A program made the position numbers and the translations under genes. Shown here piece after piece: positions 33,175-50,720 of a stretch of 64,000 nt of DNA. Positions within the stretch are counted from its first letter, which is position 1. Each line of letters begins with the position of its first letter. Origin of the DNA: Arcobacter sp. EP1 (GTDB taxonomy: Bacteria; Campylobacterota; Campylobacteria; Campylobacterales; Arcobacteraceae); assembly GCA_001655195.1 (NCBI GenBank), contig LPNY01000122.1, forward strand, positions 23,194 through 87,193. The letters run 5' to 3'. The notes under the pieces are model-generated. The model was not told the origin of the DNA, made no database searches, and saw nothing but the letters and a program-made list of their open reading frames with translations.

Positions 33175-33186
33175 ACCTACTTTAAA

Positions 33187-33200
33187 CGAATTTTCATTCA
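33187..33200. promoter_or_regulatory. Candidate TetR operator before the TetR-hupUV operon
   Basis: CGAATTTTCATTCA, two mismatches from the palindrome TGAATGnnCATTCA shared with the hydrogenase promoters. It lies 59 bp before the TTG start of the TetR gene, where self-repression would act. Confidence 0.45.
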
Positions 33201-33258: not shown

Positions 33259-33852
33259 TTGTCTGCAAAAGAAGCTAAAAAAAACAGTATTATAGAAAGT
33301 GCCTTAAAACTTTTTTCTCAAAATGGATTTTATAACACCACCATTCCTGATATCGCAAAATCTATGAAGATGAGTGTGGGAAATATGTATAACTATTTTT
33401 CCTCAAAAGAAGAACTTGCAAAATATGCCATAAAATATTCAACTAACATTATTGCTAAAGAGTTACGTGAAGTAAATAATATGGAAATCTCTTCAAAAGA
33501 GAAACTCTTTGTTTTTACTCACAAATACTTTGAAAACGTAAAAAAATCACCGGAAATTGTAGAGTATTTCTTACGGGTTTACTTATCAAACAGAGAAGTG
33601 TTTGCACAAGGGTGTGAAGGTTTCCTTTGTGTGGGAGATTTTGTCACCGAAGTAATGATTTTACTTGACGAAGGTGCTCAAAATAAAGAGTTTAGAGAAC
33701 AAGACTTTTTCCCAGCATTTGGAATGTTCATGGGGGCTTTAGGTGGATTTGCATTTTTAAGTGGCGAAAATGTCCTTGAAAAAGATCTACTAGAGTACTC
33801 AGATGCTATTGCAGATAATATTTATCGAGCATTAAAGCATGAGGAAGCATAA
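33259..33852 (+). CDS. TetR/AcrR family transcriptional regulator of the hydrogen block
   Basis: 197 aa. N-terminal helix-turn-helix: ESALKLFSQNGFYNTTIPDIAKSMKMSVGNMYNYFSSKEEL-like sequence (about residues 10-55), then an all-helical C-terminal part. The start is TTG 33259, with AAGGA 6 bp before it. The last 14 bp overlap the hupU-like gene, so translation is coupled, an unusual bond between a repressor and a hydrogenase. The palindromes TGAATGnnCATTCA before this gene and both hyd operons are its likely sites (inference). No ligand is predictable; members of this family commonly sense small hydrophobic molecules, but here the partner sensor may be the HupUV-like protein. Confidence 0.9.
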   Translation: MSAKEAKKNSIIESALKLFSQNGFYNTTIPDIAKSMKMSVGNMYNYFSSKEELAKYAIKYSTNIIAKELREVNNMEISSKEKLFVFTHKYFENVKKSPEIVEYFLRVYLSNREVFAQGCEGFLCVGDFVTEVMILLDEGAQNKEFREQDFFPAFGMFMGALGGFAFLSGENVLEKDLLEYSDAIADNIYRALKHEEA

Positions 33853-34735
33853 ACCAACAGTTGTCTGGTTTCAAGCGGTTACCTGTAATGGTAACACGCA
33901 CTCTTTATTATGTTCAAACTCAAATCGTTTGGAACTGTTTTTAAATAGTTTTGAACTTCTTTACCACCCCTCTTTAACCGTTGATATAAATTTAGAAGAT
34001 ATTCTTAATCTGGATTCTATTGATTACTTATTAATTGAGGGTGCCTTAACTGATAATACAAACTTCTTTCAAATATCCAATGAAAGTGTTAAAAAAAACC
34101 TCAATAACCTAGCCTCAAAATCAAAATTTATAGTTGCTGTTGGTTCGTGTGCTTCCTATGGTGGAATTCATGCCCAATTTGAGCTTAATGACGATTTATG
34201 TGGAGTGAGTGATGCAATTACACCTAATATGAAACTTCATCACCCAATCATTAACTTAACAGGATGTCCTGTTCATCCTGAATGGATTTTACAAACACTT
34301 TTTACACTAAAAAAAGATGGAAAGATTATGTTAGACGATGAACATCGTCCTATAGAAATCTACTGTCATTTAGCCCACCATGGTTGTACAAGAAATGATT
34401 ATTTTGAATGGAAAGTAGAAGCAGATTCTTTTGGATTAAAAGAGGGTTGCCTGTTTTATGATTTAGGGTGTCGTGGTCCTATGACACACTCCAATTGTAA
34501 CAGAGTTCTTTGGAATGATGTGAATACTAAAACACGTGCAGGTATGCCTTGTATTGGTTGTACAGAGTTTGATTTCCCAAGAGAAAATATGTTAGAGACA
34601 AAAAAACATATTGGTATTCCATTTGAAGCACCTGTAGGAGTGCAAAAACGAGCCTATTTGTCCTTAGCAGGTGTTGCTAAAACCTTTAAAATAGAACGAT
34701 TAAATAAAAAGTTGATAGAGTATGAAGACAGTTGA
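33839..34735 (+). CDS. hupU: [NiFe]-hydrogenase small subunit, HupU-like, cytoplasmic (H2 sensor)
   Basis: 298 aa, with no Tat signal and no membrane anchor, so the protein stays in the cytoplasm. Cluster ligands are visible: CNGN (Cys16; Asn19 where a Cys is common), VGSCASYGG, TGCPVHPEW, HHGC, LGCRGPMTHSNC and MPCIGCTEFDFP. The length and lack of leader match group 2 hydrogenases, which include H2-sensing HupU/HoxB. It overlaps the TetR gene upstream by 14 bp and the large subunit downstream by 14 bp. A catalytic cytoplasmic enzyme (group 2 uptake type) is the alternative; the large subunit favours the sensor reading. Confidence 0.85.
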   Translation: MRKHKPTVVWFQAVTCNGNTHSLLCSNSNRLELFLNSFELLYHPSLTVDINLEDILNLDSIDYLLIEGALTDNTNFFQISNESVKKNLNNLASKSKFIVAVGSCASYGGIHAQFELNDDLCGVSDAITPNMKLHHPIINLTGCPVHPEWILQTLFTLKKDGKIMLDDEHRPIEIYCHLAHHGCTRNDYFEWKVEADSFGLKEGCLFYDLGCRGPMTHSNCNRVLWNDVNTKTRAGMPCIGCTEFDFPRENMLETKKHIGIPFEAPVGVQKRAYLSLAGVAKTFKIERLNKKLIEYEDS

Positions 34736-36077
34736 TATTATAGAAAGAATTGAAGGTGAAGCCCGTTTACGTTTGTCATGGAAAGATAAAAAAGTATCTC
34801 ACTCACAAATTGAGTTTTTAAACTTTCGTGGATTTGAATATATTTTACAAAATAAACCTATATTAGATGCTCTAATATACAACCCCAGAATTTGTGGTAT
34901 TTGTGGACAAGCACACCTTTTAACAACAGTTAATGCTATTGAAAATTTATATGCAAATGCAAATGTCGATTTAGAAATCTCTCCTAAAGCAAAAATATTA
35001 AGAGAATTAGGTTTAAGTATAGAAATTTTAGACTCTCATTTTAAATGGTTTTACATGTTTATTATGCCTGACTTAGTCAGCTTAAGTGATAAAATTTATC
35101 ATGGTTATGATCCTTTAAAAGGCGAAAAGTGGTTACGAGCAAATAAGGTTGCAAGTGAAACTATTAAAGCACTAGCAATTTATGCAGGACAGTGGCCCCA
35201 TACATCTTATATGGTTCCAGGTGGAGTTATGAGTGATCCTACCTTGTTAGATTTGGCAACCATCGAAAACTATATTGACCAAGCAATTATTTATACTGAA
35301 AATAATATTTTAGGTGTGAGCATTGATGATTATTTAGCTTTTGATAAGGTGAAAGATTTAGAACAATTAACTGGTGATTTAAGAGACTTTAGTGATATCT
35401 CTTTTGAAACCTCAATGCACACAAAGGGTCAAAGTTTTGATAGACATATGGTATTAGGCGATAGTTTAGGTTTTAAGACAGGAAAAATCACTAATAAAAA
35501 TGTCTATAAAGTTAACAAAGAAAAGATCTCAGAAAGTGACGAGTTCTGTTTTGATCCCCAAACAAAAGAACAATCATCCAGTAAATATGGTTGGGCAAAA
35601 ACCGTTAAATATAATTCTGAAGTTTATGAAGTAGGCCCATTATCAAGAGCTCTTGTCTCCAATCGAGGTTTTGTAAAATCATTACACAAAGAGTACAAAG
35701 ATTCAGTTTTAACGCGTGTATTTGGGCGTATGGATGAATTAGTTTTCTTATTAGAACATACAAAACAGCTATTAAAAAAAATTGATGTGAGTGAACCCTC
35801 TTTTATTGAACCAAAAATTTCACTAAAAGAGTTTGATGGCATAAAAGCCAATGCAACAGTTGAAGCCTGTCGAGGTTCACTTTTTCATGAACTCATAGTA
35901 AAAAGTGGAAAAATTGTAACATATGATGTAATAACTCCAACCGTTTGGAATTTAGGACCAGGAACTGCTGAGAATCCTGGTGTTGCACAAAAGGCACTTT
36001 TAGGTTTAAATTCCCTTAAAGAGGCAACCGTCGTTCTTCGGTCGTTTGATGTCTGTTCTGTCTGTACAACACATTAG
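34722..36077 (+). CDS. hupV: [NiFe]-hydrogenase large subunit, HupV-like H2-sensing type
   Basis: 451 aa. The first Ni-ligand motif is RICGICGQAH (Cys58, Cys61); the second is the last stretch of the protein, Cys445-S-V-Cys448-T-T-His451 followed directly by the stop. There is thus no C-terminal extension for a maturation protease, as known for regulatory hydrogenases (HupV/HoxC). Ile60 replaces the gas-channel Val of standard enzymes (position 74 in Desulfovibrio numbering), and Phe113 in WFYMF aligns with the channel Leu122. Ile and Phe at these two sites are the reported hallmark of O2-insensitive H2 sensors. It ends the TetR-hupU-hupV operon. No HoxJ-like kinase is adjacent. Confidence 0.85.
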   Translation: MKTVDIIERIEGEARLRLSWKDKKVSHSQIEFLNFRGFEYILQNKPILDALIYNPRICGICGQAHLLTTVNAIENLYANANVDLEISPKAKILRELGLSIEILDSHFKWFYMFIMPDLVSLSDKIYHGYDPLKGEKWLRANKVASETIKALAIYAGQWPHTSYMVPGGVMSDPTLLDLATIENYIDQAIIYTENNILGVSIDDYLAFDKVKDLEQLTGDLRDFSDISFETSMHTKGQSFDRHMVLGDSLGFKTGKITNKNVYKVNKEKISESDEFCFDPQTKEQSSSKYGWAKTVKYNSEVYEVGPLSRALVSNRGFVKSLHKEYKDSVLTRVFGRMDELVFLLEHTKQLLKKIDVSEPSFIEPKISLKEFDGIKANATVEACRGSLFHELIVKSGKIVTYDVITPTVWNLGPGTAENPGVAQKALLGLNSLKEATVVLRSFDVCSVCTTH

Positions 36078-36141
36078 TAAAAAATAGTTTACCATCCCAT
36101 TTTATCGACTTCGTAGCATTAACGTAGCATTGAAAATTTAC

Positions 36142-36155
36142 TGAATATTCATTCG
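36142..36155. promoter_or_regulatory. Candidate TetR operator, distal site before hydA-1
   Basis: TGAATATTCATTCG, matching the TGAATGnnCATTCA palindrome except at two positions. It is 59 bp upstream of the second site. Confidence 0.45.
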
Positions 36156-36200: not shown

Positions 36201-36214
36201 TAAATGAACATTCA
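36201..36214. promoter_or_regulatory. Candidate TetR operator, proximal site before hydA-1
   Basis: TAAATGAACATTCA, one mismatch from TGAATGnnCATTCA. It lies 22 bp before ATG 36237, close to the expected transcription start, a position suited to repression. Confidence 0.5.
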
Positions 36215-36236
36215 TTAATACAAAAAGGAGATGCTT

Positions 36237-37481
36237 ATGGCTCAGGATTCTCAAGAAATGGTTAAAAAAGTTTTTAGCCAAAAGTCTGCAAGGGTTGATA
36301 CAAACAGGGGTGATGAATACTACGGCTCGCTGTTTGAACAGACAAAACAACGATTGGCAAGTTTACGTAAGTCACCAAAACTAAGTGACACGGATTATAT
36401 GGACGTCTTAGAAAGTGAAGGGGTAAATAGACGAGATTTCATGAAGTGGGCAAGTGCAACAACTGCTACACTTATGTTACCTCCTATGTTCACACCTTTA
36501 GTGGCAGAAGCAGCTGAACTTATGAACAGAGTTCCAGTTATTTGGATTGAGTTACAAGACTGTGCGGGGAACACAGAAGCCTTGTTACGAAGTTCAACAC
36601 CAACTGTTGATGACTTATTATTTGACGTGTTAAGCTTAGAGTTTAACGAAACTATTATGGCGGCTTCAGGACACCAAGCTGAAGAACAACTAGAAGATGC
36701 TGTTCATCATTTTAAAGGTAAATATTTACTATTTGTTGAAGGTTCAATTCCAACAGCAATGAACGGTGGATACGGTACGATTGGAGCTTCTGGTGAAACA
36801 TTTATCGAGCATCTAGATAGACTTGCTAAAGATGCAGCTGCGATTGTTGCTGTTGGTACCTGTGCTACTTACGGTGGTATTTCAGCTGCCTCTCCAAATC
36901 CAACAGGTGCTGTAGGAGTTATGGATTTAGTAAAAGGTAAGCCTATTATTAATATTCCAGCATGTCCCGCAAATCCAGCAAATATGGTTGGGGTTGTATT
37001 ACACTACGTATTAACAGGACAAGTTCCTGAATTAGATTCTCTTCTTCGACCTAAGTTTGCTTATGGTTACCGAATTCATGATAACTGTGAAAGAAGAGCA
37101 CACTTTGATGCAGGTGAGTTTGTAGAAGAGTGGGGTGATGAAGGTGCTAAAAATAACTTCTGTTTATATAAAGTTGGTTGTAAGGGACCTATGACATTTA
37201 ATAACTGTTCTATTATTAGATATAACGAAGGGGCAAACTGGCCTGTTGGTGTTGGTCGAGGATGTATTGGTTGTTCTGAACCAGATTTCTGGGATAAATA
37301 TGCATATGAAAGACCAATGGCTGATGCAAATATCAAAGCACCTACTGGTGGCGTTGAAAAAACAGTTGATGAGTTTGGACTAGGATTATTAACAGTAACA
37401 ACTGTTGGTATTGGTGTGCACGCGGTTGCAAGTGCAGTAGCAGGAAAAAGAACAGTACATAGTACAGATGAGGAAGCGTAA
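36237..37481 (+). CDS. hydA: Uptake [NiFe]-hydrogenase 1 small subunit, with Asn for a proximal-cluster Cys
   Basis: 414 aa from ATG 36237 (GGAG at 36227-36230; an ATG at 36231 is too close to it). A long leader precedes the Tat motif NRRDFMKW (Arg65-Arg66), so the protein is exported. C-terminal helix VTTVGIGVHAVASAVAG anchors it. Cluster ligands: Cys109 in DCAGN, VGTCATYGG, IPACPAN, RIHDNCERR, FCLYKVGCKGP and RGCIGCSEPDFWD. The second proximal-cluster ligand, Cys in the usual CxxC, is Asn112 here; HydA-2 keeps Cys. The extra Cys residues of O2-tolerant enzymes are absent. It is the first gene of hydABC-1, behind two candidate TetR sites, and passes H2 electrons to HydC. Confidence 0.93.
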   Translation: MAQDSQEMVKKVFSQKSARVDTNRGDEYYGSLFEQTKQRLASLRKSPKLSDTDYMDVLESEGVNRRDFMKWASATTATLMLPPMFTPLVAEAAELMNRVPVIWIELQDCAGNTEALLRSSTPTVDDLLFDVLSLEFNETIMAASGHQAEEQLEDAVHHFKGKYLLFVEGSIPTAMNGGYGTIGASGETFIEHLDRLAKDAAAIVAVGTCATYGGISAASPNPTGAVGVMDLVKGKPIINIPACPANPANMVGVVLHYVLTGQVPELDSLLRPKFAYGYRIHDNCERRAHFDAGEFVEEWGDEGAKNNFCLYKVGCKGPMTFNNCSIIRYNEGANWPVGVGRGCIGCSEPDFWDKYAYERPMADANIKAPTGGVEKTVDEFGLGLLTVTTVGIGVHAVASAVAGKRTVHSTDEEA

Positions 37482-39217
37482 TGAGTAAACATGTAGTAAT
37501 TGATCCAATAACAAGAATTGAGGGACACCTTAGAATTGAGGCGGTAATTGATGACAATAATGTGATTACTGATGCATTCAGTTCTTCAACAATGTTTAGA
37601 GGTATTGAGGAAATTCTTAAAGGACGAGATCCACGAGACTGTGGACTATTAGCAATGAGAATTTGTGGTGTTTGTACAGGTACACATTACCAAAGAAGTA
37701 TTGAAGCAGTTGAGCATGCATTTAATGTAACAATTCCTAAGAATGCAAGAATTGTTAGAAACTTAATGCAAGGTTCTTTATATATTCATGACCATATTGT
37801 TCACTTCTATCACTTACATGCACTTGACTTTGTAGATATCACTGTAGCACTTAAAGCTGATCCAAAAGCAGCAGTTGCTGAAGCACAAAAGTGGGCTAAA
37901 GCAGCAGGTACAAGACCATGGAATGCAAGTGAAGATGGCTATGCAGAAGTTCAAGAAAGAGTTACTCGATATGTAAAACAAGGACGACTTGGAATCTTTG
38001 GAAATGCATACTGGGGAAGTAAAGCGTATAAATTAACTCCAGAGCAAAACTTAATTGCACTGTCTCACTATTTAGATGCATTAGATTTACAAAGAGATAT
38101 TGCAAAAGCACAAGCTATTTTTGGTGGAAAGAATCCACATCCACAATCAATTGTTGTTGGTGGGGTAACATGTGTTCAAGATATCAAAAACCCAATTAGA
38201 GTTGCAGAGTTTAAAGATATTATTCAAAAAGCAACGAAGTTTACTAAGCAAGCATATGTTTCTGATGTATTAATGGCAGGAACAATGTATGCTGATGAAG
38301 CCTTAGCTGGTGTTGGTGGTGGTATTGGTAACTTTATGTCATTTGGTGACTTTAAGTTAGATGATACACCATTCTATGAAGCAGCAGAATTATTCCCTCC
38401 AGGTGTAGTAATGAATAAAGATTTATCTAAAGTATATGAATTAGATCAATCAAAAATCACTGAAGATGTAACACACGCTTGGTATGAAGGAACAACAAAC
38501 CTTCACCCATATGATGGTGTAACAAATCCTAACTATACTGGTTTTGGTAAAAAAGAAGATGGAATTGCTTACTTAGATACTGAGAAGAAATATTCGTGGA
38601 TTAAGTCACCATTATATGATGATGAAAGAATGGAAGTTGGTCCACTTGCTCGTATGATTGTTGGAGTTGCAAAAGGTGATAAGAAGATTACTAAATATGT
38701 AACTGATTTCTTAAAGAAAGGTAACTTACCAGTTAAAGTTCTTTTCTCAACAGTTGGACGAACAGCGGCACGTTGTGTAGAGACTGAATTAATGTGTGAT
38801 GAAGTTCTTAAATGGTGTGATGAATTAGCTGCAAACGTTGCTGCTGGTGATTTATCAACATGGACAGAGTTTGACTTTGATAAAGTTGCTAAAGATGCAA
38901 AAGGTTACGGTATGGCTGAGGCTCCGCGTGGAGGTTTAGGTCACTGGGTTAAAATTAAAGATGGTAAAGTTGCAAACTACCAAGCAGTAGTTCCTTCTAC
39001 TTGGAATGCAGCTCCGCGAGATTACAAAGGAAGACTTGGTGCTTACGAAGCATCATTAGTTGGAACAAAAGTAGTTAATCCTGATGAGCCATTAGAAATT
39101 ATTCGAACGGTTCACAGTTTCGACCCATGTATTGCTTGTGCGGTACATATTGTTGATACTAATGGTAAAGAGTTGGCAGTATACAAAATTGATCCTGTAG
39201 GAGGAAGCCGTGCCTAA
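37481..39217 (+). CDS. hydB: Uptake [NiFe]-hydrogenase 1 large subunit
   Basis: 578 aa. Active-site ligands RICGVCTGTH (Cys62, Cys65) and DPCIACAVH (Cys550, Cys553), followed by a 22-residue tail after His556 that the maturation protease HydD would remove. The gas-channel positions are the standard Val (in CGVC) and Leu (in HFYHL, 48 residues later, the exact Desulfovibrio spacing). It is exported with HydA by the Tat route and oxidises H2 in the periplasm. Its ATG shares one base with the stop of hydA. The paralogue at 43751 has the same length and motifs. Confidence 0.95.
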   Translation: MSKHVVIDPITRIEGHLRIEAVIDDNNVITDAFSSSTMFRGIEEILKGRDPRDCGLLAMRICGVCTGTHYQRSIEAVEHAFNVTIPKNARIVRNLMQGSLYIHDHIVHFYHLHALDFVDITVALKADPKAAVAEAQKWAKAAGTRPWNASEDGYAEVQERVTRYVKQGRLGIFGNAYWGSKAYKLTPEQNLIALSHYLDALDLQRDIAKAQAIFGGKNPHPQSIVVGGVTCVQDIKNPIRVAEFKDIIQKATKFTKQAYVSDVLMAGTMYADEALAGVGGGIGNFMSFGDFKLDDTPFYEAAELFPPGVVMNKDLSKVYELDQSKITEDVTHAWYEGTTNLHPYDGVTNPNYTGFGKKEDGIAYLDTEKKYSWIKSPLYDDERMEVGPLARMIVGVAKGDKKITKYVTDFLKKGNLPVKVLFSTVGRTAARCVETELMCDEVLKWCDELAANVAAGDLSTWTEFDFDKVAKDAKGYGMAEAPRGGLGHWVKIKDGKVANYQAVVPSTWNAAPRDYKGRLGAYEASLVGTKVVNPDEPLEIIRTVHSFDPCIACAVHIVDTNGKELAVYKIDPVGGSRA

Positions 39218-39950
39218 AATGAAGCGGGTTGAACGTATGACTGGGATCATGCGGACCATTCACTGGATGAATGCGTTCTGTATGATTATCGCAGTTGCAA
39301 CCGGGCTATACATAGGTCATCCATATTATCAATCATTCATTGCAGATCCTGCAGTGGATAAATATGTGATGGCTTGGAATCGTTGGGGACACTTTATTGT
39401 TGCGATTATTTTTGATGTAACCGCAATTTTAATTGGTTACCTATACCTATTCTCAAACTTTGAGAAACCGTATAAAAAGATTTTACCTACAAAGAAAAAT
39501 TTTGTAGAGTTTTGTGAAGTGTTCTTTAACTTAATTACATTTAATAGAAGAAAGAAATTTGATTCAAGCCATAGTGATAGTTATAACATTATGTTCTTTA
39601 CGCTTTTTCATATTCTATTAGTGTTTATGTTATTAACAGGATTACAGTTATATGTTCATGGGTTAGCATCAGGTGAGAGTTCTATTGGTCAATGGTGGCC
39701 ATGGATTTTACATGTGTCAACTGATTGGACATTGGATGTATTTGGTGGAAATATGGGAGTTAGAATAGCTCACCATACAGCAATGTATATACTCCTTATG
39801 TGGGTTATGTCTCATATTTATTATCAAGTATGGCGAACAATCTTCTGGCGAGAAGGCGATATTAATATCGTGTTTGGTGGAACTAAATTCTACAATGGAA
39901 ACATTGTGAATGAAAAAGGTGAAGTCGAAAACGCAAAAAAGAAAAGCTAA
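39210..39950 (+). CDS. hydC: Hydrogenase 1 b-type cytochrome subunit
   Basis: 246 aa. Start is GTG 39210 with AGGAGG 5 bp before it, overlapping hydB by 8 bp. Four hydrophobic helices and the pattern TGIMRTIHWMNAFCMI, GHFIVAIIFDV, HILLVFMLLTGLQLYVHG and HHTAMYILLMWVMSHIYY give the haem-ligating His residues of Ni/Fe-hydrogenase cytochrome b (HydC/HyaC). It carries electrons from the HydA clusters to menaquinone in the membrane. It is the last gene before the terminator at 39984-40016, so hydABC forms one transcript. Confidence 0.93.
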   Translation: MPKMKRVERMTGIMRTIHWMNAFCMIIAVATGLYIGHPYYQSFIADPAVDKYVMAWNRWGHFIVAIIFDVTAILIGYLYLFSNFEKPYKKILPTKKNFVEFCEVFFNLITFNRRKKFDSSHSDSYNIMFFTLFHILLVFMLLTGLQLYVHGLASGESSIGQWWPWILHVSTDWTLDVFGGNMGVRIAHHTAMYILLMWVMSHIYYQVWRTIFWREGDINIVFGGTKFYNGNIVNEKGEVENAKKKS

Positions 39951-40072: not shown

Positions 40073-40648
40073 ATGAAAAATATTGTTATTGGCGTTGGAA
40101 ACGTGCTATTTAAAGATGAAGGTGTTGGTATTTATGCTGCACACTATTTAAAAGAGAATTATGATTTTGAAGGTGATATTGAGATTATGGATGGGGGAAC
40201 TTTAGGGTTTAAACTCATGGCATATTTCCAAGAGTATGATAATGTAATTATCTTAGATACGGTTTCTGTTGAAGATAATCCAGGAAGTATATTTAGACTG
40301 CCATCAGATGTTTTATTAGGGATGGGACAGTACCGTAAAACTGCTCACGAAGTTGAAATTGTTGAGATGTTAGAGATTTGTTCTGTATTAGAAAAACATG
40401 CGGAAGTGATTATTTTAGGAATTATTCCTGAAGATATCGAAAGTGTTAAAATTGGTTTAACGCCAAAAATTGAAGAACATTTTGTGGATTTAATCAATCA
40501 AGCGTTAAAAGATATTGAAGCCCTTGATGTAAAAATAACTGCCAAAGAGAACCCTAAATCAATTTCAGATGTTGCCAAAGGTTTAATGGGATCATACAAT
40601 GATGAATATGATGAAAGAATTCCTAATGATGAGGATACTACACGATGA
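40073..40648 (+). CDS. hydD: Hydrogenase 1 maturation protease
   Basis: 191 aa. GVGNVLFKDEGVGI at the N-terminus, GTLGFKL and the TAHEVEIVEML motif hold the nickel-sensing acidic and His ligands of the HyaD/HybD/HydD endopeptidases. It removes the tail behind the last Ni ligand of HydB after Ni insertion. GAGAGG precedes the ATG. Its last 4 bp overlap hydE (ATGA). The extra 25 acidic C-terminal residues are not in the short HydD-2. Confidence 0.93.
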   Translation: MKNIVIGVGNVLFKDEGVGIYAAHYLKENYDFEGDIEIMDGGTLGFKLMAYFQEYDNVIILDTVSVEDNPGSIFRLPSDVLLGMGQYRKTAHEVEIVEMLEICSVLEKHAEVIILGIIPEDIESVKIGLTPKIEEHFVDLINQALKDIEALDVKITAKENPKSISDVAKGLMGSYNDEYDERIPNDEDTTR

Positions 40649-42162
40649 AATTAACCTACAAAATTGATTTTAATTCAACGAATAGTTACTATAAAGATAT
40701 TATTAATGATTTAATAAAAGAGTTTGAAGTTAACGCAACATGTGTACAGTATAGAAGTTTTTTAGCAATTAATATTGATGAAGAGGAAGAAAAACTAGAG
40801 GCATTTTTTAAGTTTTTAGAATCAAAGCTTCCTTTATCAATCTTTTTAGGAAAAAGTAGTGTTGTTGATAATATCGAAGACTCTTTCGAGCCTTTAGCTA
40901 ATAATGATGAACAACAAAATATTGCTATTTCTGCTGATGAAATTATGGATATTTACCAAAATTCGGCGAATTTTAATACAGAAGCAAAAGCTATAAAATC
41001 AGGTGAAATTGTTACTGTTAAAACTTCAAATGGTCTAAAAAAAGTAGCAATACCAAGTCTTAAAAATCGTATTACATTAGGTGAAGATGTAAATCTAATG
41101 GTTATTAATTTAAATGCCATTAATAATTTATTAGCAGTCAACCAACGAGATATTCAGCTGTTAAGTTCTATTGAACGTCCTTTAGTGAAATTGAAATTTA
41201 ATATTCTAAGAAACAGTGAAAAAGAGTATTCAAATACAAACTTTGTAAATACTAAATTACCTGATGATACAGTAAGTTATGAATTAGCAACAGCACTAAG
41301 AAAAGAGGGTATTGATTTTGTTATTTACACAGAAGAATCATCTGAAAATGATTTGGAAGTAACCTACAATGATGAACAAGCTTTAATTGTTAGAGGAGAT
41401 AAAGCACTTTTCCCTAAATATGATTATACCCTTAATGAAAGATTTGACTCTTCAAAAGAGTATTTTGAAAAAAACGGGGGAGTTTATAAAGCAACCTTGA
41501 GTCAGCTAAATAAGCGGCTTGAAAAATCAATTGGTGTTTATATGTCAACGCAAAGTTATGAAAGTTCAATTGGGGTAAATGTCCCAGGAAAGGGAATAAA
41601 AGAGATTATTAAAATCCCTAATGTTATGACTGACTTTGATATTTGTATGGAAGATATTGAAGGTATTGATGAAAACACTGAGCGATTAATCAAAAACTAT
41701 AAAGAGAAGTTTCCTGAGATTTTTGAGAGTAAACCACTCCTTGAAGGAACTCATGGCTTTGAAACGATTTTGAATTTAACTGCTCATATGATTGGTCTTA
41801 GAGATGCCAATGAATTAGAGTCAAAAGCACATGAATTTAGCGCAAAAAGTGGTTTAGATGTTGCCTATAAAGTAGCTAAAATTGATGATGTTAATTACTT
41901 AGATTATCGTAAAGTAGTACAGTCAATCATGAGTTATAAAATAGCTGGTGTTGAAAATAATATGCTTGCTTTTTCAGTTTTTGAAAGCTTAAGTGAGTTT
42001 ATTGTTGATCAAGTAATGAAGATTAATAGTGAGCTAAAATGTAGAGATGTTATTCTTTGTGGTGATATGTTTGCTAACTCAATTTTACTCTCTAAAACTC
42101 AAAAAGAGTTAAAAACACTTAAAGTACTTTTACCAAAAGAGTATCCTTTAGATATTATCTAG
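40645..42162 (+). CDS. hydE: HydE-1, HypF-like hydrogenase accessory protein lacking the zinc finger
   Basis: 505 aa. It is the paralogue of HydE-2 (46710) and follows hydD in the order known from Wolinella hydABCDE. The C-terminal VILCGDMFANSIL resembles ILTGGVFQNKTLL of HypF (48361), with the Gly-Gly replaced by Gly-Asp. The zinc finger that HydE-2 shares with HypF is missing here; this part reads IAISADEIMDIYQN instead. HypF attaches the CN precursor; HydE is reported to take part in making active enzyme, but its reaction is unknown. Translation is coupled to hydD. Confidence 0.72.
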   Translation: MKLTYKIDFNSTNSYYKDIINDLIKEFEVNATCVQYRSFLAINIDEEEEKLEAFFKFLESKLPLSIFLGKSSVVDNIEDSFEPLANNDEQQNIAISADEIMDIYQNSANFNTEAKAIKSGEIVTVKTSNGLKKVAIPSLKNRITLGEDVNLMVINLNAINNLLAVNQRDIQLLSSIERPLVKLKFNILRNSEKEYSNTNFVNTKLPDDTVSYELATALRKEGIDFVIYTEESSENDLEVTYNDEQALIVRGDKALFPKYDYTLNERFDSSKEYFEKNGGVYKATLSQLNKRLEKSIGVYMSTQSYESSIGVNVPGKGIKEIIKIPNVMTDFDICMEDIEGIDENTERLIKNYKEKFPEIFESKPLLEGTHGFETILNLTAHMIGLRDANELESKAHEFSAKSGLDVAYKVAKIDDVNYLDYRKVVQSIMSYKIAGVENNMLAFSVFESLSEFIVDQVMKINSELKCRDVILCGDMFANSILLSKTQKELKTLKVLLPKEYPLDII

Positions 42163-42203: not shown

Positions 42204-42484
42204 ACAAATTTCATAATTTTTTTTAACCATGATTTTTTAGTATTAATTTAATTTTATGTCCTGCTAATGTCTGAAAAGTAATAAATATATTTTTATTAAT
42301 GAATGGCTATTCACCGACACTTAAGAGACTTTTTTACTCAATTAATAATAATTTTTTTTAAATAAAATTTAGAAAATAATTCTTTACCTTTCCTTTAATA
42401 GTCCTATAAAAAGGGAACTAATCCGGTATATTAATTTTTATTTTAGTGGTAGTTAAGTTTAGCTTTTGTAATATTTCAATTATT
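42204..42484 (+). other. Long leader region before hydA-2, no gene
   Basis: The 421-bp gap between hydE-1 and hydA-2 has no credible reading frame. It holds the terminator at its start, the palindrome at 42300-42313 and AT-rich DNA. The two other palindromes and the large hairpin follow at 42485-42570. Confidence 0.6.
42300..42313. promoter_or_regulatory. Candidate TetR operator, distal site before hydA-2
   Basis: TGAATGGCTATTCA, one mismatch from TGAATGnnCATTCA. Confidence 0.5.
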
Positions 42485-42498
42485 TGAATGACCATTCA
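42485..42498. promoter_or_regulatory. Candidate TetR operator, perfect palindrome before hydA-2
   Basis: TGAATGACCATTCA, a perfect 6-2-6 inverted repeat and the best match of the set. It lies immediately left of the 21-bp hairpin. Confidence 0.6.
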
Positions 42499-42503
42499 GT
42501 CAG

Positions 42504-42549
42504 AGACATAAAAAATACCAATTCTTTTGAATTGGTATTTTTTATGTCT
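42504..42549 (+). terminator. Perfect 21-bp hairpin between two operator-like sites
   Basis: Arms 42504-42524 and 42529-42549 are exact complements around TTTT, ending in a T-rich right arm (GGTATTTTTTATG). It looks like a strong terminator or attenuator 35 bp before the hydA-2 start. The two sides hold palindromes at 42485 and 42557. Its role is uncertain. Confidence 0.6.
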
Positions 42550-42556
42550 TGACGAG

Positions 42557-42570
42557 TGAATAGGTATTCA
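42557..42570. promoter_or_regulatory. Candidate TetR operator, proximal site before hydA-2
   Basis: TGAATAGGTATTCA, a perfect 6-2-6 palindrome differing from the consensus by one symmetric pair. It ends 14 bp before the TTG start and just before the AAAGGA ribosome site. Confidence 0.55.
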
Positions 42571-42584
42571 TAAAAAGGAAAGAT

Positions 42585-43748
42585 TTGAAAGATACTAACT
42601 TACTAAAAAAGCTCTCTTCTCGTTTAGACGAATTATCAAAACTTCCAAAACTTGATGACAAGAAATCAATTGCGAAAATTGTTGATCAAAAAGGTTTTTC
42701 ACGAAGAGATTTTATGAAATGGGCGGGTGCAATGACAGCAATGCTGATGCTACCTGCAAGTTTTACTCCTGTTGTAGCTCGTGCTGCTGAACTTAGTGAC
42801 CGGTTACCAATTATTTGGTTGCACATGGCAGAGTGTACAGGTTGTTCTGAATCATTACTTCGAACAGACGCACCTACTATTGACTCTTTGATTTTTGATT
42901 ATATCTCATTAGAATACCATGAAACACTCATGGCAGCAGCTGGTTGGCAAGCAGAAGAAAATCTTGAGCATGCCATTGAAAAGTACAAAAATAGATATAT
43001 TCTTATGGTAGAAGGAGCTATTCCTTCAGGTGAAGAGAATTTTTATTTAACTATCGGTGCTCATGGTCAAACAGGAGAAGCTAGTGCTAAAAAAGCCAGT
43101 GAAAATGCAGCTGCTATTTTTGCTATTGGAACCTGTTCTGCTTTTGGTGGTGTTCAAGCTGCTAATCCAAATCCAACTAACTCACAACCACTTAGTAAAG
43201 TAACAAACAAAACAGTTATCAATGTTCCGGGTTGTCCTCCAAGTGAGAAAAACATCGTTGGTACATTACTTCACTTTATACTTTATGGAACACTTCCAGC
43301 ACTAGATGCTTATAATCGACCAAAATGGGCATATGGATTACGAATTCATGATTTATGTGAACGAAGAGGACACTTTGATGCGGGTGAATTTGTAGAAAAC
43401 TTTGGTGACGAAGGTGCTAAAAAAGGCTACTGTTTATACAAAGTAGGGTGTAAAGGACCATACACGTTTAATAACTGTTCAAAAAATAAATTCAATCAAC
43501 ATATGTCATGGCCAATTCAAGCAGGACATGGATGTATTGGATGTAGTGAACCTGATTTTTGGGATACTATGGGACCATTTGAAGAGCCCGTTGCAGATAA
43601 GCTTTATAATACAGTATTTGGTGGAGCCGGTGCAGATGCAACAGCTGACAAAATTGGTGTAGGAATTTTAACAGCAACTGCTGTTGGTATTGCAGCACAT
43701 GCAGTTATCTCTAAAGTAAAAAACCCACAAGAAGATGAGGAACATTAA
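42585..43748 (+). CDS. hydA: Uptake [NiFe]-hydrogenase 2 small subunit
   Basis: 387 aa. Start is TTG 42585 with AAAGGA 5 bp before it. Tat motif SRRDFMKW (Arg40-Arg41), then all normal cluster ligands: ECTGCSES (Cys84, Cys87), IGTCSAFGG, VPGCPPS, RIHDLCERR, YCLYKVGCKGP and HGCIGCSEPDFWD. A C-terminal helix (ILTATAVGIAAHAVI) anchors it in the membrane. It is a paralogue of HydA-1 but keeps the canonical proximal CxxC. It leads hydABCDE-hypF and lies behind three palindromes and a large hairpin. Confidence 0.94.
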   Translation: MKDTNLLKKLSSRLDELSKLPKLDDKKSIAKIVDQKGFSRRDFMKWAGAMTAMLMLPASFTPVVARAAELSDRLPIIWLHMAECTGCSESLLRTDAPTIDSLIFDYISLEYHETLMAAAGWQAEENLEHAIEKYKNRYILMVEGAIPSGEENFYLTIGAHGQTGEASAKKASENAAAIFAIGTCSAFGGVQAANPNPTNSQPLSKVTNKTVINVPGCPPSEKNIVGTLLHFILYGTLPALDAYNRPKWAYGLRIHDLCERRGHFDAGEFVENFGDEGAKKGYCLYKVGCKGPYTFNNCSKNKFNQHMSWPIQAGHGCIGCSEPDFWDTMGPFEEPVADKLYNTVFGGAGADATADKIGVGILTATAVGIAAHAVISKVKNPQEDEEH

Positions 43749-43750
43749 AA

Positions 43751-45481
43751 ATGGCAAATAAAAGAGTTATAGTTGACCCAATCACACGTATTGAGGGACA
43801 CTTAAGAATTGAAGTTGAAGTAGATGAAAATAATGTTATTCAAAAAGCTTACTCATCATCAACTTTATGGAGAGGGTTAGAGACAATTGTAAAAAATAGA
43901 GATCCTAGAGATGCAGGGTTTTTAATGCAAAGAATTTGTGGTGTTTGTACATACTCTCACTATCGAGCTGGTATTGAAGCAGTTGAAGATGCATTAGATA
44001 TTGTTCCTCCAATCAATGCAAAATTAACACGAAGTTTAATGAATCAAGCATTATTTATGCACGACCATGTTGTTCACTTTTATCATTTACATGGACTTGA
44101 TTGGGTGGATGTTGTTTCTGCACTTAAAGCAGACCCTGCAAAGGCAAGTAAAGAGGCATTTAAATACACTAAGTACCCAATAGCTACTGGTGAAAATGAT
44201 TTGCGATTAGTTCAAGATAAAGTTCAATCATTTGTTGACAAAGGTGCACTTGGACCATTTGCTAACGCTTATTGGGGACATGGAACATTTAAGTTAACTC
44301 CTGAGCAAAACCTAATTGCATTATCTCACTACTTAAAAGCCCTAGAAGTACAACGAACAGCTGCTCAACTTATGGCAATGTTTGGAGGTAAACAACCCCA
44401 TCCTCAAAGTTTAACTGTTGGTGGAGTTACTTGTGTTATGGATTTACTTGATCCTTCACGAATGGGTGAGTATTTAACCAAGTACAAAGAAGTTGCTAAC
44501 TTTATTGAACATGCATATTATGCTGATATTGTTATGGCAGGAGCTGCTTATGCAAAAGAACCATCTGTAACAAGCCAAGCAGGAACTATGAACTTTATGT
44601 CATACAAAGAGATGCAATTAAACCGAAATGATTTCCTCTTTGATACGGGTATTATCATGAATGGTGACCTTTCAAAAGTTCATCCAATCAATGAAGACTT
44701 AATTACTGAAGAGGCTACTCACTCTTGGTATGCAGATAATGAACCATTACATCCATATGATGGAAAAACAAATCCAAACTATACTGGATTTAAAGATAGA
44801 ATGACAATTGATGGTCATGGAAAAGAGGCACACTCTAAATCACTTGATGAAAAAGGTAAATACTCTTGGATTAAATCTCCACGTTATGATGGAAAAGCGA
44901 TGGAAGTTGGTCCTTTATCAGCAGTATTAGTTTCATATGCATCAGGCAATAAAAAGATTGTTAAAGTTGTTGATGAATTCTTAGCACAAACAGGATTACC
45001 TGTTGATGCACTATTTACAACACTTGGACGAACAGCAGCACGAGCACTGCAAACTAAAGCAATTGTTGATAATGGATTAGAGACATTTAATACACTAATT
45101 GAAAACTTAAAAGTTGATCAAGAAACATGTGCAACGTATAAAATTGATAAAAACAAAGAATACAAAGGACGATTTATTGGTGATGTTCCAAGAGGAATGT
45201 TATCTCATTGGATCCGCATTAAAAATGGTGTTGTTGAAAACTATCAAGCCGTTGTTCCATCAACTTGGAATGCTGGACCTATTGATTCAACAGGACTTCA
45301 AGGACCATATGAGTCAAACTTAGTGGGTATGAAAGTTCAAGATATTTCACAACCATTAGAAATTATTCGAGTTATTCACTCTTTTGATCCTTGTATTGCG
45401 TGTGCTGTACATGTTATGGATACAAAAGGAAATGATTTAGGTGAATATAGAGTTGATCCTGTATATGGAACAAGTTGTTAA
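43751..45481 (+). CDS. hydB: Uptake [NiFe]-hydrogenase 2 large subunit
   Basis: 576 aa. RICGVCTYSH (Cys63, Cys66) and DPCIACAVH (Cys548, Cys551) provide the Ni ligands; 22 residues follow His554 as the cleavable tail, ending in Cys. Gas-channel positions are standard Val and Leu. It is transported with HydA-2 and oxidises H2 in the periplasm. It begins 2 bp after the hydA stop. Confidence 0.95.
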   Translation: MANKRVIVDPITRIEGHLRIEVEVDENNVIQKAYSSSTLWRGLETIVKNRDPRDAGFLMQRICGVCTYSHYRAGIEAVEDALDIVPPINAKLTRSLMNQALFMHDHVVHFYHLHGLDWVDVVSALKADPAKASKEAFKYTKYPIATGENDLRLVQDKVQSFVDKGALGPFANAYWGHGTFKLTPEQNLIALSHYLKALEVQRTAAQLMAMFGGKQPHPQSLTVGGVTCVMDLLDPSRMGEYLTKYKEVANFIEHAYYADIVMAGAAYAKEPSVTSQAGTMNFMSYKEMQLNRNDFLFDTGIIMNGDLSKVHPINEDLITEEATHSWYADNEPLHPYDGKTNPNYTGFKDRMTIDGHGKEAHSKSLDEKGKYSWIKSPRYDGKAMEVGPLSAVLVSYASGNKKIVKVVDEFLAQTGLPVDALFTTLGRTAARALQTKAIVDNGLETFNTLIENLKVDQETCATYKIDKNKEYKGRFIGDVPRGMLSHWIRIKNGVVENYQAVVPSTWNAGPIDSTGLQGPYESNLVGMKVQDISQPLEIIRVIHSFDPCIACAVHVMDTKGNDLGEYRVDPVYGTSC

Positions 45482-45494
45482 TAAAGGATAATCA

Positions 45495-46169
45495 ATGATT
45501 GAAAAAAAGTATGAGTTCTCTGGTATATTACGATTTAATCACTGGGTGAGAGTTGTAACAATGCTAGTGCTTGTGGTTACAGGATTTTATATAGCTAATC
45601 CTTTTATTATCCCTTACACAAGTGATGAGCCAGTAAACTTTATGAATGCCTATTGGAGAATGTGGCATATTGTTTTTGGATTTGTTTTAATTGGTTCAAC
45701 GATTATTAAGAGTTATCTTTTTATTTTTGATAGGCAAAGTCGAAACGAGCGTATCTCATTTTTTGATTTTTTAAGTCCAAGAATCTGGATACAACAAATC
45801 AAATATTATATGTTAGTTGGAAGACACCCTGATAATAAAGGTATCTATAATCCTTTACAGTTTATTGCTTATTTTATTATCTTTGTGACGCTGTTTTTAA
45901 TTTCATTAACAGGGTTAATTCTTCATGTACATGTATATCATGAAGGAATGGGTGGAATCTTATTTGATTCTATGCGTTATGTTGAAGTGTTAATGGGTGG
46001 TTTAGCTACTGTTAGAGAAATTCATCATATTACTATGTGGATATTTTTACTGTTTATTCCTGTTCATATTTATATGGCTGTATTTAACTCAGTATATGGA
46101 AAAAGTGGTGCTATGGATGCTATTTTCTCTGGATATACTTGGCATAAAAAGCATAAAGATAAAAAGTGA
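45495..46169 (+). CDS. hydC: Hydrogenase 2 b-type cytochrome subunit
   Basis: 224 aa, four membrane helices. ILRFNHWVRVVTML, WHIVFGFVLIG, TGLILHVHVYH and REIHHITMWIFLLFIPVHIYMAV give the haem His pattern of the HydC family, and the form is close to Wolinella HydC. It moves electrons from HydA-2 to menaquinone. AAAGGA precedes the ATG. Its end overlaps hydD-2 by 4 bp (GTGA). Confidence 0.94.
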   Translation: MIEKKYEFSGILRFNHWVRVVTMLVLVVTGFYIANPFIIPYTSDEPVNFMNAYWRMWHIVFGFVLIGSTIIKSYLFIFDRQSRNERISFFDFLSPRIWIQQIKYYMLVGRHPDNKGIYNPLQFIAYFIIFVTLFLISLTGLILHVHVYHEGMGGILFDSMRYVEVLMGGLATVREIHHITMWIFLLFIPVHIYMAVFNSVYGKSGAMDAIFSGYTWHKKHKDKK

Positions 46170-46726
46170 ATATTTTAATATTAGGGATTGGTAATATCCT
46201 TTTTCAAGATGAAGGAATAGGGGCACATTTTATTCACTACTTAGATGAAAAATATGTGTTTTGTTCTAACGATACCACTGTTAGTATTATTGATGGTGGA
46301 ACACTAGCACAACGTCTTATTCCTGATATTGTAAAATATGACCAAGTTATAGTCGTTGATTGTGTTGATGCAATCAACTCTAAAGCTGGAGATGTTTACT
46401 TTTTTGATTTTGAGAAAACACCAAGTAATATTAACTGGCAAGGAAGTGCCCATGAAGTTGAGATGCTTCAAACACTTAATATGATTCAAATGCATGCGGA
46501 TCTACCATTAACCCATGTATTAGGAGTTATTCCTAAACGTGTTGCTGATGATACAACTTTTGAACTAAGTGCTGAAATTGTAACTGCTGTTTTAACTATG
46601 GAAGATACAATGATAAAACATCTTAAAACTTTAGGTGTAACTAGTCATGTAGTTAATGAAATAACAATCAAAGAGATTGCAGAAATATCTTACAAAAGAG
46701 AGATTAAAAATGGTCCTCAATTATAG
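46166..46726 (+). CDS. hydD: Hydrogenase 2 maturation protease
   Basis: 186 aa from GTG 46166, which overlaps the hydC stop. LGIGNILFQDEGIGAHF, GGTLAQR and SAHEVEMLQTL hold the metal-binding residues of HydD/HyaD peptidases. It should process HydB-2; each operon has its own protease, in line with the known one-protease-per-hydrogenase rule. The HupV-like protein needs none. Confidence 0.93.
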   Translation: MNILILGIGNILFQDEGIGAHFIHYLDEKYVFCSNDTTVSIIDGGTLAQRLIPDIVKYDQVIVVDCVDAINSKAGDVYFFDFEKTPSNINWQGSAHEVEMLQTLNMIQMHADLPLTHVLGVIPKRVADDTTFELSAEIVTAVLTMEDTMIKHLKTLGVTSHVVNEITIKEIAEISYKREIKNGPQL

Positions 46727-48353
46727 TTTTGAATACCTTTCAAATAACAATACCCTGATTAATTTTTTAATCAGAATCGCCGATGAGTCAAATATACCAT
46801 TTGAAATCGTACGTCAAAACTCTATTATTGATTTTTATTGTGAAGCTGATGTTGATACCCTAACAAGTTTTGCCAATAATATCTCTACTGATCTGCCTAT
46901 GTCTATTTTTCTTAAAAAAACAGAGGTTAAAGAAGTTGATCAGATGCCAAAGAAAACCCTTTTTGAAGATAGACAAAAGGAGTTTGAACTCTCATTTTGT
47001 CCAAAATGTCTTCGTGAGGTTGAAGATGAATCTTCACTGAACTATTACAATCCATTTACTACTTGTGATTTATGTGTTCCTTCAACAAAGCAGAATCAAC
47101 TAATCTATTCTCAAGATAATCAAGAAATTCACTATGAAAATTACAAAGAGCTATTTGTAAGAGTAGCTCAAAAAATAAGTGAGGGATTACGTCTTAAAGT
47201 GCAAACCCATAGTGGTACCTTTGTTTTTAAAAAGTATGAACCAACAGATTATGAGCCAAAATTACTGTGTTGTGATTTATTATCTTTATCAAAAACATTT
47301 GTTGCCTCAAAAGAGGAGTTAATCGCTTTAGCTTGTATTGAAAAACCTCAAATTAAGTTAGCATTTAATGCTATTTTTAAACAAAAACATAACCTGGATA
47401 TCGAGGGTGCTAACATAAATGTGGCAAATGACTTAATTCTTTATCTTTTGAGCCGTGAATTAACAGAACTTAATATTGAGTTTTTGCAGTATGTCAATGA
47501 GGATGCTGATATTTCGTTAAATTTTAACGAAGAGCCTCGTGAAAAAATCTTTGTTCCTAAAATTAACATTCTTGATAATAACCAAGTTGTTTTTTTACAA
47601 AACAGCAATTATGAACAGAGTCTAAATAGTATGTATCATAAGTTTGATGACAAAAACAAAGGACAATTTATGGTTTTATTACATGAAAATAATCTGCTTG
47701 ATAAAACAATTATAAACTTTTATAGCAGTAGCATAGATGATGATAATGTTGCCTTATACTCTAACAATATTGGAAGTTTCCTTGATATTTTAAACTATAC
47801 TTTGCCAAAGAGTATTGAAGATATTTTTAAAAGAATTGAAGAAGATGAAATCGGTAAAAAGCTTTTAGGAAATTATAAAAAAACTTTTCCAAAAGAGTAC
47901 GAATATGCTTTATCTTATGATATTTCGTATTTAAATAAAAAATCCATAAAAAGTTTTTGGAAAATAGTTCAAGTTATTTTAGGATTTGAACAAAGTGTTC
48001 TTGATTTAGCAACCTCGTGTTTACTTGAAAAAGGACCACGAATAGACTATAAACGTTTTGAACAAGATAAGATTTATAACCAAGAATTTGATTTTCTAAA
48101 ATTGATTCGAAGTGGAATAAGCTTTAAATTAGCAGGTGTTGAATCCAATACAATTTCCCTTGGATATGTGGAGAGTTATGCTCATTTTATTGCTTTGATC
48201 GTTGACGATGTAAACAGTGAAATACCCCTAGATGGAATCAGTTTATGTGGGGATCTTTTTGCAAATAATCTAATTTCAAATTTTATTTATAAAAGTATTA
48301 CTAAAAACTATAAAATATACTATAATAAGGACTTTGTAATTCAAGTATCTTAG
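46710..48353 (+). CDS. hydE: HydE-2, HypF-like hydrogenase accessory protein with zinc finger
   Basis: 547 aa from ATG 46710; the track of upstream frame starting at 46677 has no ribosome site, whereas GAGAG lies before 46710. It overlaps hydD by 17 bp. CPKC, 18 residues, CDLC reproduces exactly the C-x2-C-x18-C-x2-C finger of HypF, including the NPFTTC end. The C-terminal GVESNTISLGYVESY and LCGDLFANNL match HydE-1 and recall the HypF GGVFQN region with Gly-Asp in its place. It may hold or pass an intermediate during active-site assembly (inference). Confidence 0.75.
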   Translation: MVLNYSFEYLSNNNTLINFLIRIADESNIPFEIVRQNSIIDFYCEADVDTLTSFANNISTDLPMSIFLKKTEVKEVDQMPKKTLFEDRQKEFELSFCPKCLREVEDESSLNYYNPFTTCDLCVPSTKQNQLIYSQDNQEIHYENYKELFVRVAQKISEGLRLKVQTHSGTFVFKKYEPTDYEPKLLCCDLLSLSKTFVASKEELIALACIEKPQIKLAFNAIFKQKHNLDIEGANINVANDLILYLLSRELTELNIEFLQYVNEDADISLNFNEEPREKIFVPKINILDNNQVVFLQNSNYEQSLNSMYHKFDDKNKGQFMVLLHENNLLDKTIINFYSSSIDDDNVALYSNNIGSFLDILNYTLPKSIEDIFKRIEEDEIGKKLLGNYKKTFPKEYEYALSYDISYLNKKSIKSFWKIVQVILGFEQSVLDLATSCLLEKGPRIDYKRFEQDKIYNQEFDFLKLIRSGISFKLAGVESNTISLGYVESYAHFIALIVDDVNSEIPLDGISLCGDLFANNLISNFIYKSITKNYKIYYNKDFVIQVS

Positions 48354-50667: not shown

Positions 50668-50720
50668 ATATTCAATTATTTAGTATTAATTATTCTTATA
50701 ATTAATATAAGGGGAAATGA

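Follow-up and report, generated by a model that had tools for sequence, protein, structure and literature searches.

A conserved TetR–group 2d [NiFe] hydrogenase operon as a candidate H2-response module of Campylobacterota

The reference classification of hydrogenases, HydDB, describes group 2d [NiFe] enzymes with the words "Unresolved role. May generate reductant for carbon fixation or have a regulatory role" (PMC5037454). Genes of Arcobacter butzleri and of an Alviniconcha symbiont are labeled group 2d in published records, and in Sulfurospirillum multivorans a TetR-like gene was noted upstream of hupSL and suggested to be a repressor of hupSL (PMC5357620). In the portion covered here, a 2019 review of respiratory regulation in Campylobacterota describes metal-dependent control and constitutive expression and names no H2-responsive regulator (PMC6682613). 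We analyzed a 64,000-nucleotide stretch of Arcobacter sp. EP1 (contig LPNY01000122.1; hereafter the window), taken from a 3.0-Mb genome of Arcobacteraceae type, in which genes for a TetR-family regulator and for the small (S) and large (L) subunits of a group 2d-type hydrogenase precede two sets of uptake-hydrogenase genes. Comparison with 397 Campylobacterota genomes points to a probable operator before the uptake-hydrogenase gene hydA, the presence of which follows the presence of TetR. We lean toward reading the locus as a one-component H2-response module, in which the uptake hydrogenases would be repressed by TetR, which in turn would receive the H2 state from the group 2d enzyme.

The operon consists of three genes:
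33259..33852, plus strand: TetR-family regulator, 197 amino acids, invariant Cys119-X4-Cys124 (PF00440, E=3e-15)
33839..34735, plus strand: [NiFe]-hydrogenase small subunit (S), group 2d-type, leaderless, 298 amino acids (PF01058 and PF14720)
34722..36077, plus strand: [NiFe]-hydrogenase large subunit (L), group 2d-type, 451 amino acids, without C-terminal extension (PF00374, E=2e-41)

The Pfam matches (TetR_N; Oxidored_q6 and NiFe_hyd_SSU_C; NiFeSe_Hases) all lie above the gathering cut-offs, with TetR_N (PF00440) scoring 56 bits against a cut-off of 24. The TetR gene starts with TTG, and AAGGA stands ahead of it. Open reading frame coordinates and domain searches agree with an earlier, sequence-only reading of the locus that TetR/S and S/L overlap by 14 bp each and that S, lacking a twin-arginine (Tat) motif or leader, is leaderless. 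The same reading was right that L has no cleavable tail: the protein ends in ...RSFDVCSVCTTH (CSVCTTH) and the stop codon follows, leaving a C-terminal extension of zero. It was mistaken in taking the last residue, His451, for a nickel ligand, as the nickel ligands are the cysteines of the two CxxC motifs, C58/C61 and C445/C448. Cleavage of the tail normally occurs right behind this terminal His; the last residue among orthologs is His, Gln, or Lys, and because many have Gln or Lys there (CTTQ, CTVK), the His is not essential.

The strongest evidence for a regulatory link comes from the promoters of hydA. A palindrome-constrained expectation-maximization search on 82 hydA upstream regions recovered TAAATGAATATTCATTTA-like sites, mostly at a fixed distance before hydA, with a log-likelihood of 671 compared with 37 to 46 in five shuffles. 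The predicted operator is the 18-bp palindrome TRAATGANTANTCATTYA, just upstream of hydA. Plain pattern counts were uninformative alone, and we required a weight matrix, built from the promoters of TetR-bearing genomes, together with TetR-less controls. With this matrix, 77 of the 82 promoters of TetR-bearing genomes reached at least 12 bits (median best score 22.5), while none of the 32 TetR-less hydA promoters had a site (best 5.5 bits; shuffle 95th percentile 6.4). The controls came from 37 hydA promoters of genomes first scored as L-less, of which 32 scored at most 5.5 bits and five 15 to 22 bits. These five, held out from the training of the matrix, are exactly the ones whose genomes carry TetR: L106, L107, L109, and L110 have L as well as TetR, and L118 has TetR but no L. 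The site has been lost separately within four families (f1, f4, f7, and f11; f1 is that of the source genome), so the match between site and TetR is not the effect of a single clade; the TetR-less losses include Arcobacteraceae with HydA 85 to 87% identical to that of the source genome. A motif search on the hydA upstream regions without the palindrome constraint yielded only coding conservation past the start codon, and scans for the sigma-70 consensus gave nothing above chance. Since the site is present with the regulator and lost without it, the regulon prediction is unusually firm for data of this kind, and TetR very probably binds the palindrome and controls hydA and hyaA.

In the source genome, acnB lies upstream of the TetR-S-L operon, and the uptake-hydrogenase genes hydABC and then hyaAB lie downstream. 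The uptake-hydrogenase operons, both putative targets of TetR, and the operator-like sites of the window are as follows:
36231..39950, plus strand: hydA1, hydB1, and hydC, periplasmic group 1b uptake hydrogenase (Tat motif, C-terminal tail, cytochrome b subunit; HydB1 PF00374, 718 bits)
42585..46726, plus strand: hyaA2, hyaB2, cytochrome b, and maturation protease, second group 1 uptake-hydrogenase operon (open reading frames; HyaB2 PF00374, 709 bits)
36201..36218, no strand assigned: main operator-like palindrome TAAATGAACATTCATTAA upstream of hydA1 (19.9 bits, top site of the window)
36138..36155, no strand assigned: second operator-like palindrome TTACTGAATATTCATTCG upstream of hydA1 (15.1 bits)
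42485..42502, no strand assigned: operator-like palindrome TGAATGACCATTCAGTCA upstream of hyaA2 (18.2 bits, second best of the window; at most one mismatch in the genome scan)
42296..42313, no strand assigned: weaker palindrome upstream of hyaA2, core TGAATGGCTATTCA (7.2 bits; one mismatch to TGAATGNNCATTCA)
42553..42570, no strand assigned: weaker palindrome immediately before the hyaA2 start, core TGAATAGGTATTCA (5.5 bits; two mismatches to TGAATGNNCATTCA)
33183..33200, no strand assigned: TAAACGAATTTTCATTCA, an operator-like site some 60 bp ahead of tetR (12.3 bits; at most one mismatch in the genome scan)

Sites of at least 12 bits are expected about 0.6 times per 64 kb. Between the main site and the hydA1 start codon there are 12 bp; the site abuts the ribosome-binding site, a position that fits repression. 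In the whole 3.0-Mb genome, six places lie within one mismatch of the operator pattern, and three of them are the promoters of tetR, hydA1, and hyaA2. A two-mismatch site, TGAATGATTATTCGTTTT, lies outside the window, close to its right edge (C168:89045-89062; L264); hypB follows about 137 bp further on, together with hypDE, and these maturation genes may belong to the same predicted regulon. The site upstream of tetR makes autoregulation possible in the source genome; elsewhere only 3 of 60 tetR promoters reach 8 bits, and since the site is not conserved there, the idea that TetR mainly regulates itself was rejected.

Other features of these regions were recorded alongside. The sole perfect operator match of the genome (C76:358165-358182; L261) sits in a gap of about 600 bp between convergent genes for an AEC-type transporter and an NlpC/P60-like protein, with no target obvious; it might possibly serve a small RNA. 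Directly behind hypF, a methyl-accepting chemotaxis protein gene (50721-53051) has a 13.9-bit operator-like site across its start codon (50718-50735); this match may be due to chance. Between operator and start codon, the hyaA2 leader (42503-42550) contains a perfect and very strong hairpin, GACATAAAAAATACCAATTC-TTTT-GAATTGGTATTTTTTATGTC (–29 kcal/mol, z –8.5), a possible terminator or attenuator. Two partial HypF-like proteins, one behind each hydrogenase operon (40645-42162 and 46677-48353), are encoded beside a full-length HypF (48361-50601); one of the two has a C-terminal Kae1-like part and one a hint of a HypF finger.

Regulator and enzyme go together as well. TetR was found in 114 of the 397 genomes and L in 106. 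Every L-bearing genome has TetR except G379, in which the contig ends inside S, and most genomes scored as having TetR and no L at the threshold do carry TetR-S-L, G382 being cut by a contig end inside S. The TetR gene stands directly upstream of S in 84 of the 84 loci with sequence upstream of S available, in ten families of the order; judged by gene order, the arrangement is far from chance. The survey of this linkage across Campylobacterota that the sequence-only reading had called for thus finds it conserved phylum-wide. Within Arcobacteraceae, TetR is the best conserved of the three proteins (76 to 85% identity, compared with 63 to 71% for S and 53 to 62% for L), the nearest named TetR being that of Poseidonibacter ostreae at 85%. 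Scanning GTDB contigs gave about 57 TetR orthologs at 51% identity or more, all in Campylobacterota-type or Aquificota records, after which the matches drop to about 30% identity or to the helix-turn-helix (HTH) alone. Aquificota carry both TetR and L, with TetR-S(-L) in Persephonella and Hydrogenothermaceae; L is also still encoded in all five Aquificaceae that keep TetR beside hydA, which speaks for the link. Among 76 loci, the distances of TetR correlate with those of S (r 0.90) and L (0.89), also in partial correlations given HydA (0.86 and 0.84), while the partial correlation of TetR with HydA given L is –0.05.

Some loci depart from the common arrangement. Certain Poseidonibacter-like genomes (genus g19; L044-L046) have a divergent TetR-S-L (TetR 53%, L 38%) where sister species have the Arcobacter type, which is a replacement of the whole module through gene transfer, and plasmid copies of TetR-S-L occur in Sulfurovum mangrovi and Sulfurimonas paralvinellae (L236, L237). 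In G239, a gene for a sulfide:quinone oxidoreductase (SQR)-type flavoprotein occupies the place of the missing S-L beside TetR. Genes between S and L in some genomes (a transglutaminase-like antisense gene, an Abi-like gene, transposon remnants) were set aside as unrelated insertions and not signaling parts, and the TetR next to a tailed group 2 hydrogenase in Runella was rejected as unrelated, with 35% identity in the HTH only.

The enzyme had been read as HupUV, the sensor hydrogenase of group 2b. A tree of 33 large subunits does not bear this out: the L proteins of Campylobacterota and Aquificota, including those of Aquifex, Aquificaceae, and Hydrogenothermaceae, form one clade (100/100) apart from HoxC/HupV (100/100), and because of this separation L is not HupUV/HoxBC. 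Given the clade shared with Aquificota homologs and the published records, L evidently corresponds to HydDB group 2d. The four Cys ligands (C58, C61, C445, and C448), E11, and R384 are all invariant in the alignment, by which the active site is complete. Of the two residues, Ile and Phe, that narrow the gas channel in regulatory hydrogenases, the first (Ile60) is invariant, and the second position is Phe in Arcobacteraceae and some Aquificota and V, S, T, I, or Y elsewhere. S is without the fourth medial-cluster Cys of HoxB. Its proximal-cluster motif, as in most sensor-type S proteins, is C-N-G-N in place of CxxC, with Asn for the second Cys ligand; HydA1 (36231-37481) has C-A-G-N, likewise with Asn, and HyaA2 retains CTGC.

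The partners of HupUV/HoxBC are also missing, which together with the tree rules out group 2b membership. As the sequence-only reading had observed, no kinase is adjacent to TetR-S-L in the window, nor does any of the loci seen have one linked to S-L. The genome has about 90 histidine-kinase-like domains, and the best match of a HoxJ query against the whole genome covers generic kinase domains only, the N-terminal part of HoxJ being unmatched. No sigma-54/NtrC-type HoxA/HupR regulator was found in the genome: a HoxA query matches receiver domains only, and PF00158 matches reach at most 28 bits in frames sized like general AAA+ proteases and chaperones. The search for a HoxJ/HoxA-type pair elsewhere in the genome thus returned generic kinase and receiver domains and no HoxA-type protein.

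The AlphaFold2 model of the regulator is a confident, all-helical TetR fold (pLDDT, the predicted local distance difference test score, 88). The closest solved fold is Bacillus subtilis FadR (template-modeling score about 0.8, 22% identity); the NCBIfam model for FadR, NF053878, scores 46 bits against a cut-off of 200, so the protein falls outside that family. Two alignments, of 26 and 40 orthologs, show Cys119 and Cys124 without variation, in the loop that leads into the long helix 126-141. Three of four TetR paralogs (in G205, G223, and G317) keep a similar HTH and are without both Cys. As far as the alignments indicate, the Cys pair is tied to the hydrogenase-linked orthologs, though it is also kept in G239 and G418. 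The paralogs (L270, L271, and L272) have about 50% identity to TetR (212 to 252 bits), the last locus holding two tandem copies that follow a group 1 hydrogenase operon.

Taken together, these observations suggest the following model. A TetR dimer would sit as repressor on the palindrome at group 1 uptake-hydrogenase promoters and, in the source genome, probably also at those of hypB and of tetR itself. The co-transcribed, cytoplasmic group 2d enzyme, with its complete active site and without a cleavable tail, would be the H2 input: once H2 meets the enzyme, TetR would be altered, the operators freed, and the uptake hydrogenases made. The basis in sequence is the conserved operon, the co-occurrence of TetR and L, and the predicted operator that follows TetR; what we infer is that TetR represses and does not activate, that H2 is the signal, and that enzyme and regulator touch directly. 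TetR likely acts as a repressor and not an activator, and we find it reasonably probable, with less assurance, that the group 2d enzyme gives TetR the H2 state. The earlier proposal that an H2 sensor acts with or through TetR thus stands as regards a predicted TetR-linked regulatory module with an operator, while sensing of H2 and contact with TetR are its conjectural part. The most likely receiving site would be the Cys-X4-Cys, as a redox switch or as a ligand of a metal or Fe-S center. A direct redox relay through the Cys pair is only a tentative proposal; equally speculative is a version with physical docking, in which the enzyme would bind the TetR dimer and, by passing on H2-derived electrons, reduce its disulfide or its metal or Fe-S center and so release the operators.

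Published expression data can be compared with this model. The genome of A. butzleri hDNRA1 resembles the window in encoding a group 2d enzyme besides two hydrogenases of group 1b; under H2, expression of the two hynAB sets rises 3.7/2.3 and 6.2/4.2 fold, and that of the 2d genes falls (PMC12286921). The induction of both group 1b hydrogenases is consistent with an H2 input, and lower 2d expression is expected if the 2d protein is not the working enzyme and tetR promoters are mostly without the operator. Several points nevertheless weigh against the model. The A. butzleri comparison is between different metabolic states with 1191 genes changed and hence is not specific (PMC12286921), and in S. 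multivorans hydB is roughly constant with and without H2, and hupL is hardly transcribed (PMC5357620). The S. multivorans tetR is probably hardly transcribed, like hupL; if it is so silent, constant hydB fits a repressor, although it can also be read against control by H2. The nearest fold, FadR, binds acyl-CoA, and one published proposal has group 2d enzymes supply reductant to carbon fixation (PMC5037454). G239 (L118) and G418 (L269) keep TetR and the Cys pair beside hydA with no adjacent S-L, and a sensitive profile search, run for G239 only, found no L anywhere in that genome; TetR can therefore be kept without the S-L sensor. In Aquificaceae the two are unlinked, TetR lying near the group 1 hydA and L at some other place (5 of 5). 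Operon linkage by itself would give co-divergence of TetR, S, and L and may explain part of it.

The main rival, which we consider unlikely, holds that a catalytic group 2d enzyme gives low-potential electrons to carbon fixation and that a metabolite-responsive TetR coordinates all hydrogenases, the 2d genes merely sharing its operon. The complete active site, the FadR structures with acyl-CoA, and the two genomes with TetR beside hydA and no S-L suit this explanation, as do the HydDB option of reductant supply (PMC5037454) and the view of Kruse et al. that such a supply is feasible (PMC5357620). Yet A. butzleri, which lacks key genes of the reductive tricarboxylic acid cycle, has 2d genes, and H2 lowers them (PMC12286921); L is never without TetR, TetR co-diverges with S and L and not with HydA, and a missing maturation tail otherwise marks sensor hydrogenases. 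We give very little credence to signaling from the group 2d enzyme through a PAS histidine kinase and a response regulator encoded away from the operon, in the manner of HupT/HupR, with TetR as a separate layer: the many histidine-kinase-like domains of the genome would leave room for it, but none matches the N-terminal part of HoxJ, the HoxA-type AAA+ regulator is absent, S lacks the extra HoxB cysteine, and no S-L-linked kinase was seen. It is most improbable that TetR is a local repressor of its own operon only, unrelated to the uptake hydrogenases, as proposed for S. multivorans. TetR genes do often control their own neighbors, and an operator-like site precedes tetR in the source genome, but the palindrome marks the great majority of hydA promoters and few tetR promoters, and it is gone from hydA promoters where TetR is absent.

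If the H2-response module holds, it would offer a directly testable answer both to the role of group 2d and to the control of hydrogenases in Campylobacterota, in the form of a regulator, a site, and a partner. Campylobacterota are prominent H2 oxidizers at vents and relatives of gut pathogens, and their hydrogenase control is mostly unexplained; the module points to a kinase-free way of switching on hydrogen use. Should docking and reduction be true, a two-protein H2 circuit without a phosphorelay would extend across Campylobacterota and Aquificota. With a single DNA-binding protein as output, the module is also a candidate compact H2 biosensor.

The circuit had been thought undescribed, and in the open literature, to which our search extended, no publication came up that places a TetR operator at hydrogenase genes or makes TetR the output of an H2 sensor. 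The adjacency of TetR and hupSL was, however, already known from S. multivorans (PMC5357620), where family and gene order are very probably the same, as the Sulfurospirillum loci of our survey show that order; the probable hydA operator, the phylum-wide linkage, and the Cys pair are new here and not reported there. The group 2d enzymes of Aquificae type (HupSL/HuaSL, Aquifex Hase III) fall in the same clade as L, and a class listed with an unresolved role is here linked to TetR and its predicted regulon.

Bacillus FadR, the closest solved fold, is likewise of the TetR family. Its operator, TGAATGAMTANTCATTCA, is of similar type, while the hydrogenase-linked TetR differs in genome context and in the Cys pair specific to its family. 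The group 2c putative sensors linked to diguanylate cyclases also combine putative H2 sensing with a nonkinase output, through another output protein; an Ideonella group 2 relative next to a GGDEF/EAL gene has both tail and protease. With HoxBC/HupUV (group 2b), the group 2d S-L shares a cytoplasmic, leaderless form, an L without tail, the Ile in the CGIC gas-channel position, and adjoining hydrogenase genes. It differs from them as a separate clade, in the C-N-G-N proximal motif and missing extra medial Cys of S, and in having TetR as its partner in place of HoxJ/HupT and HoxA/HupR.

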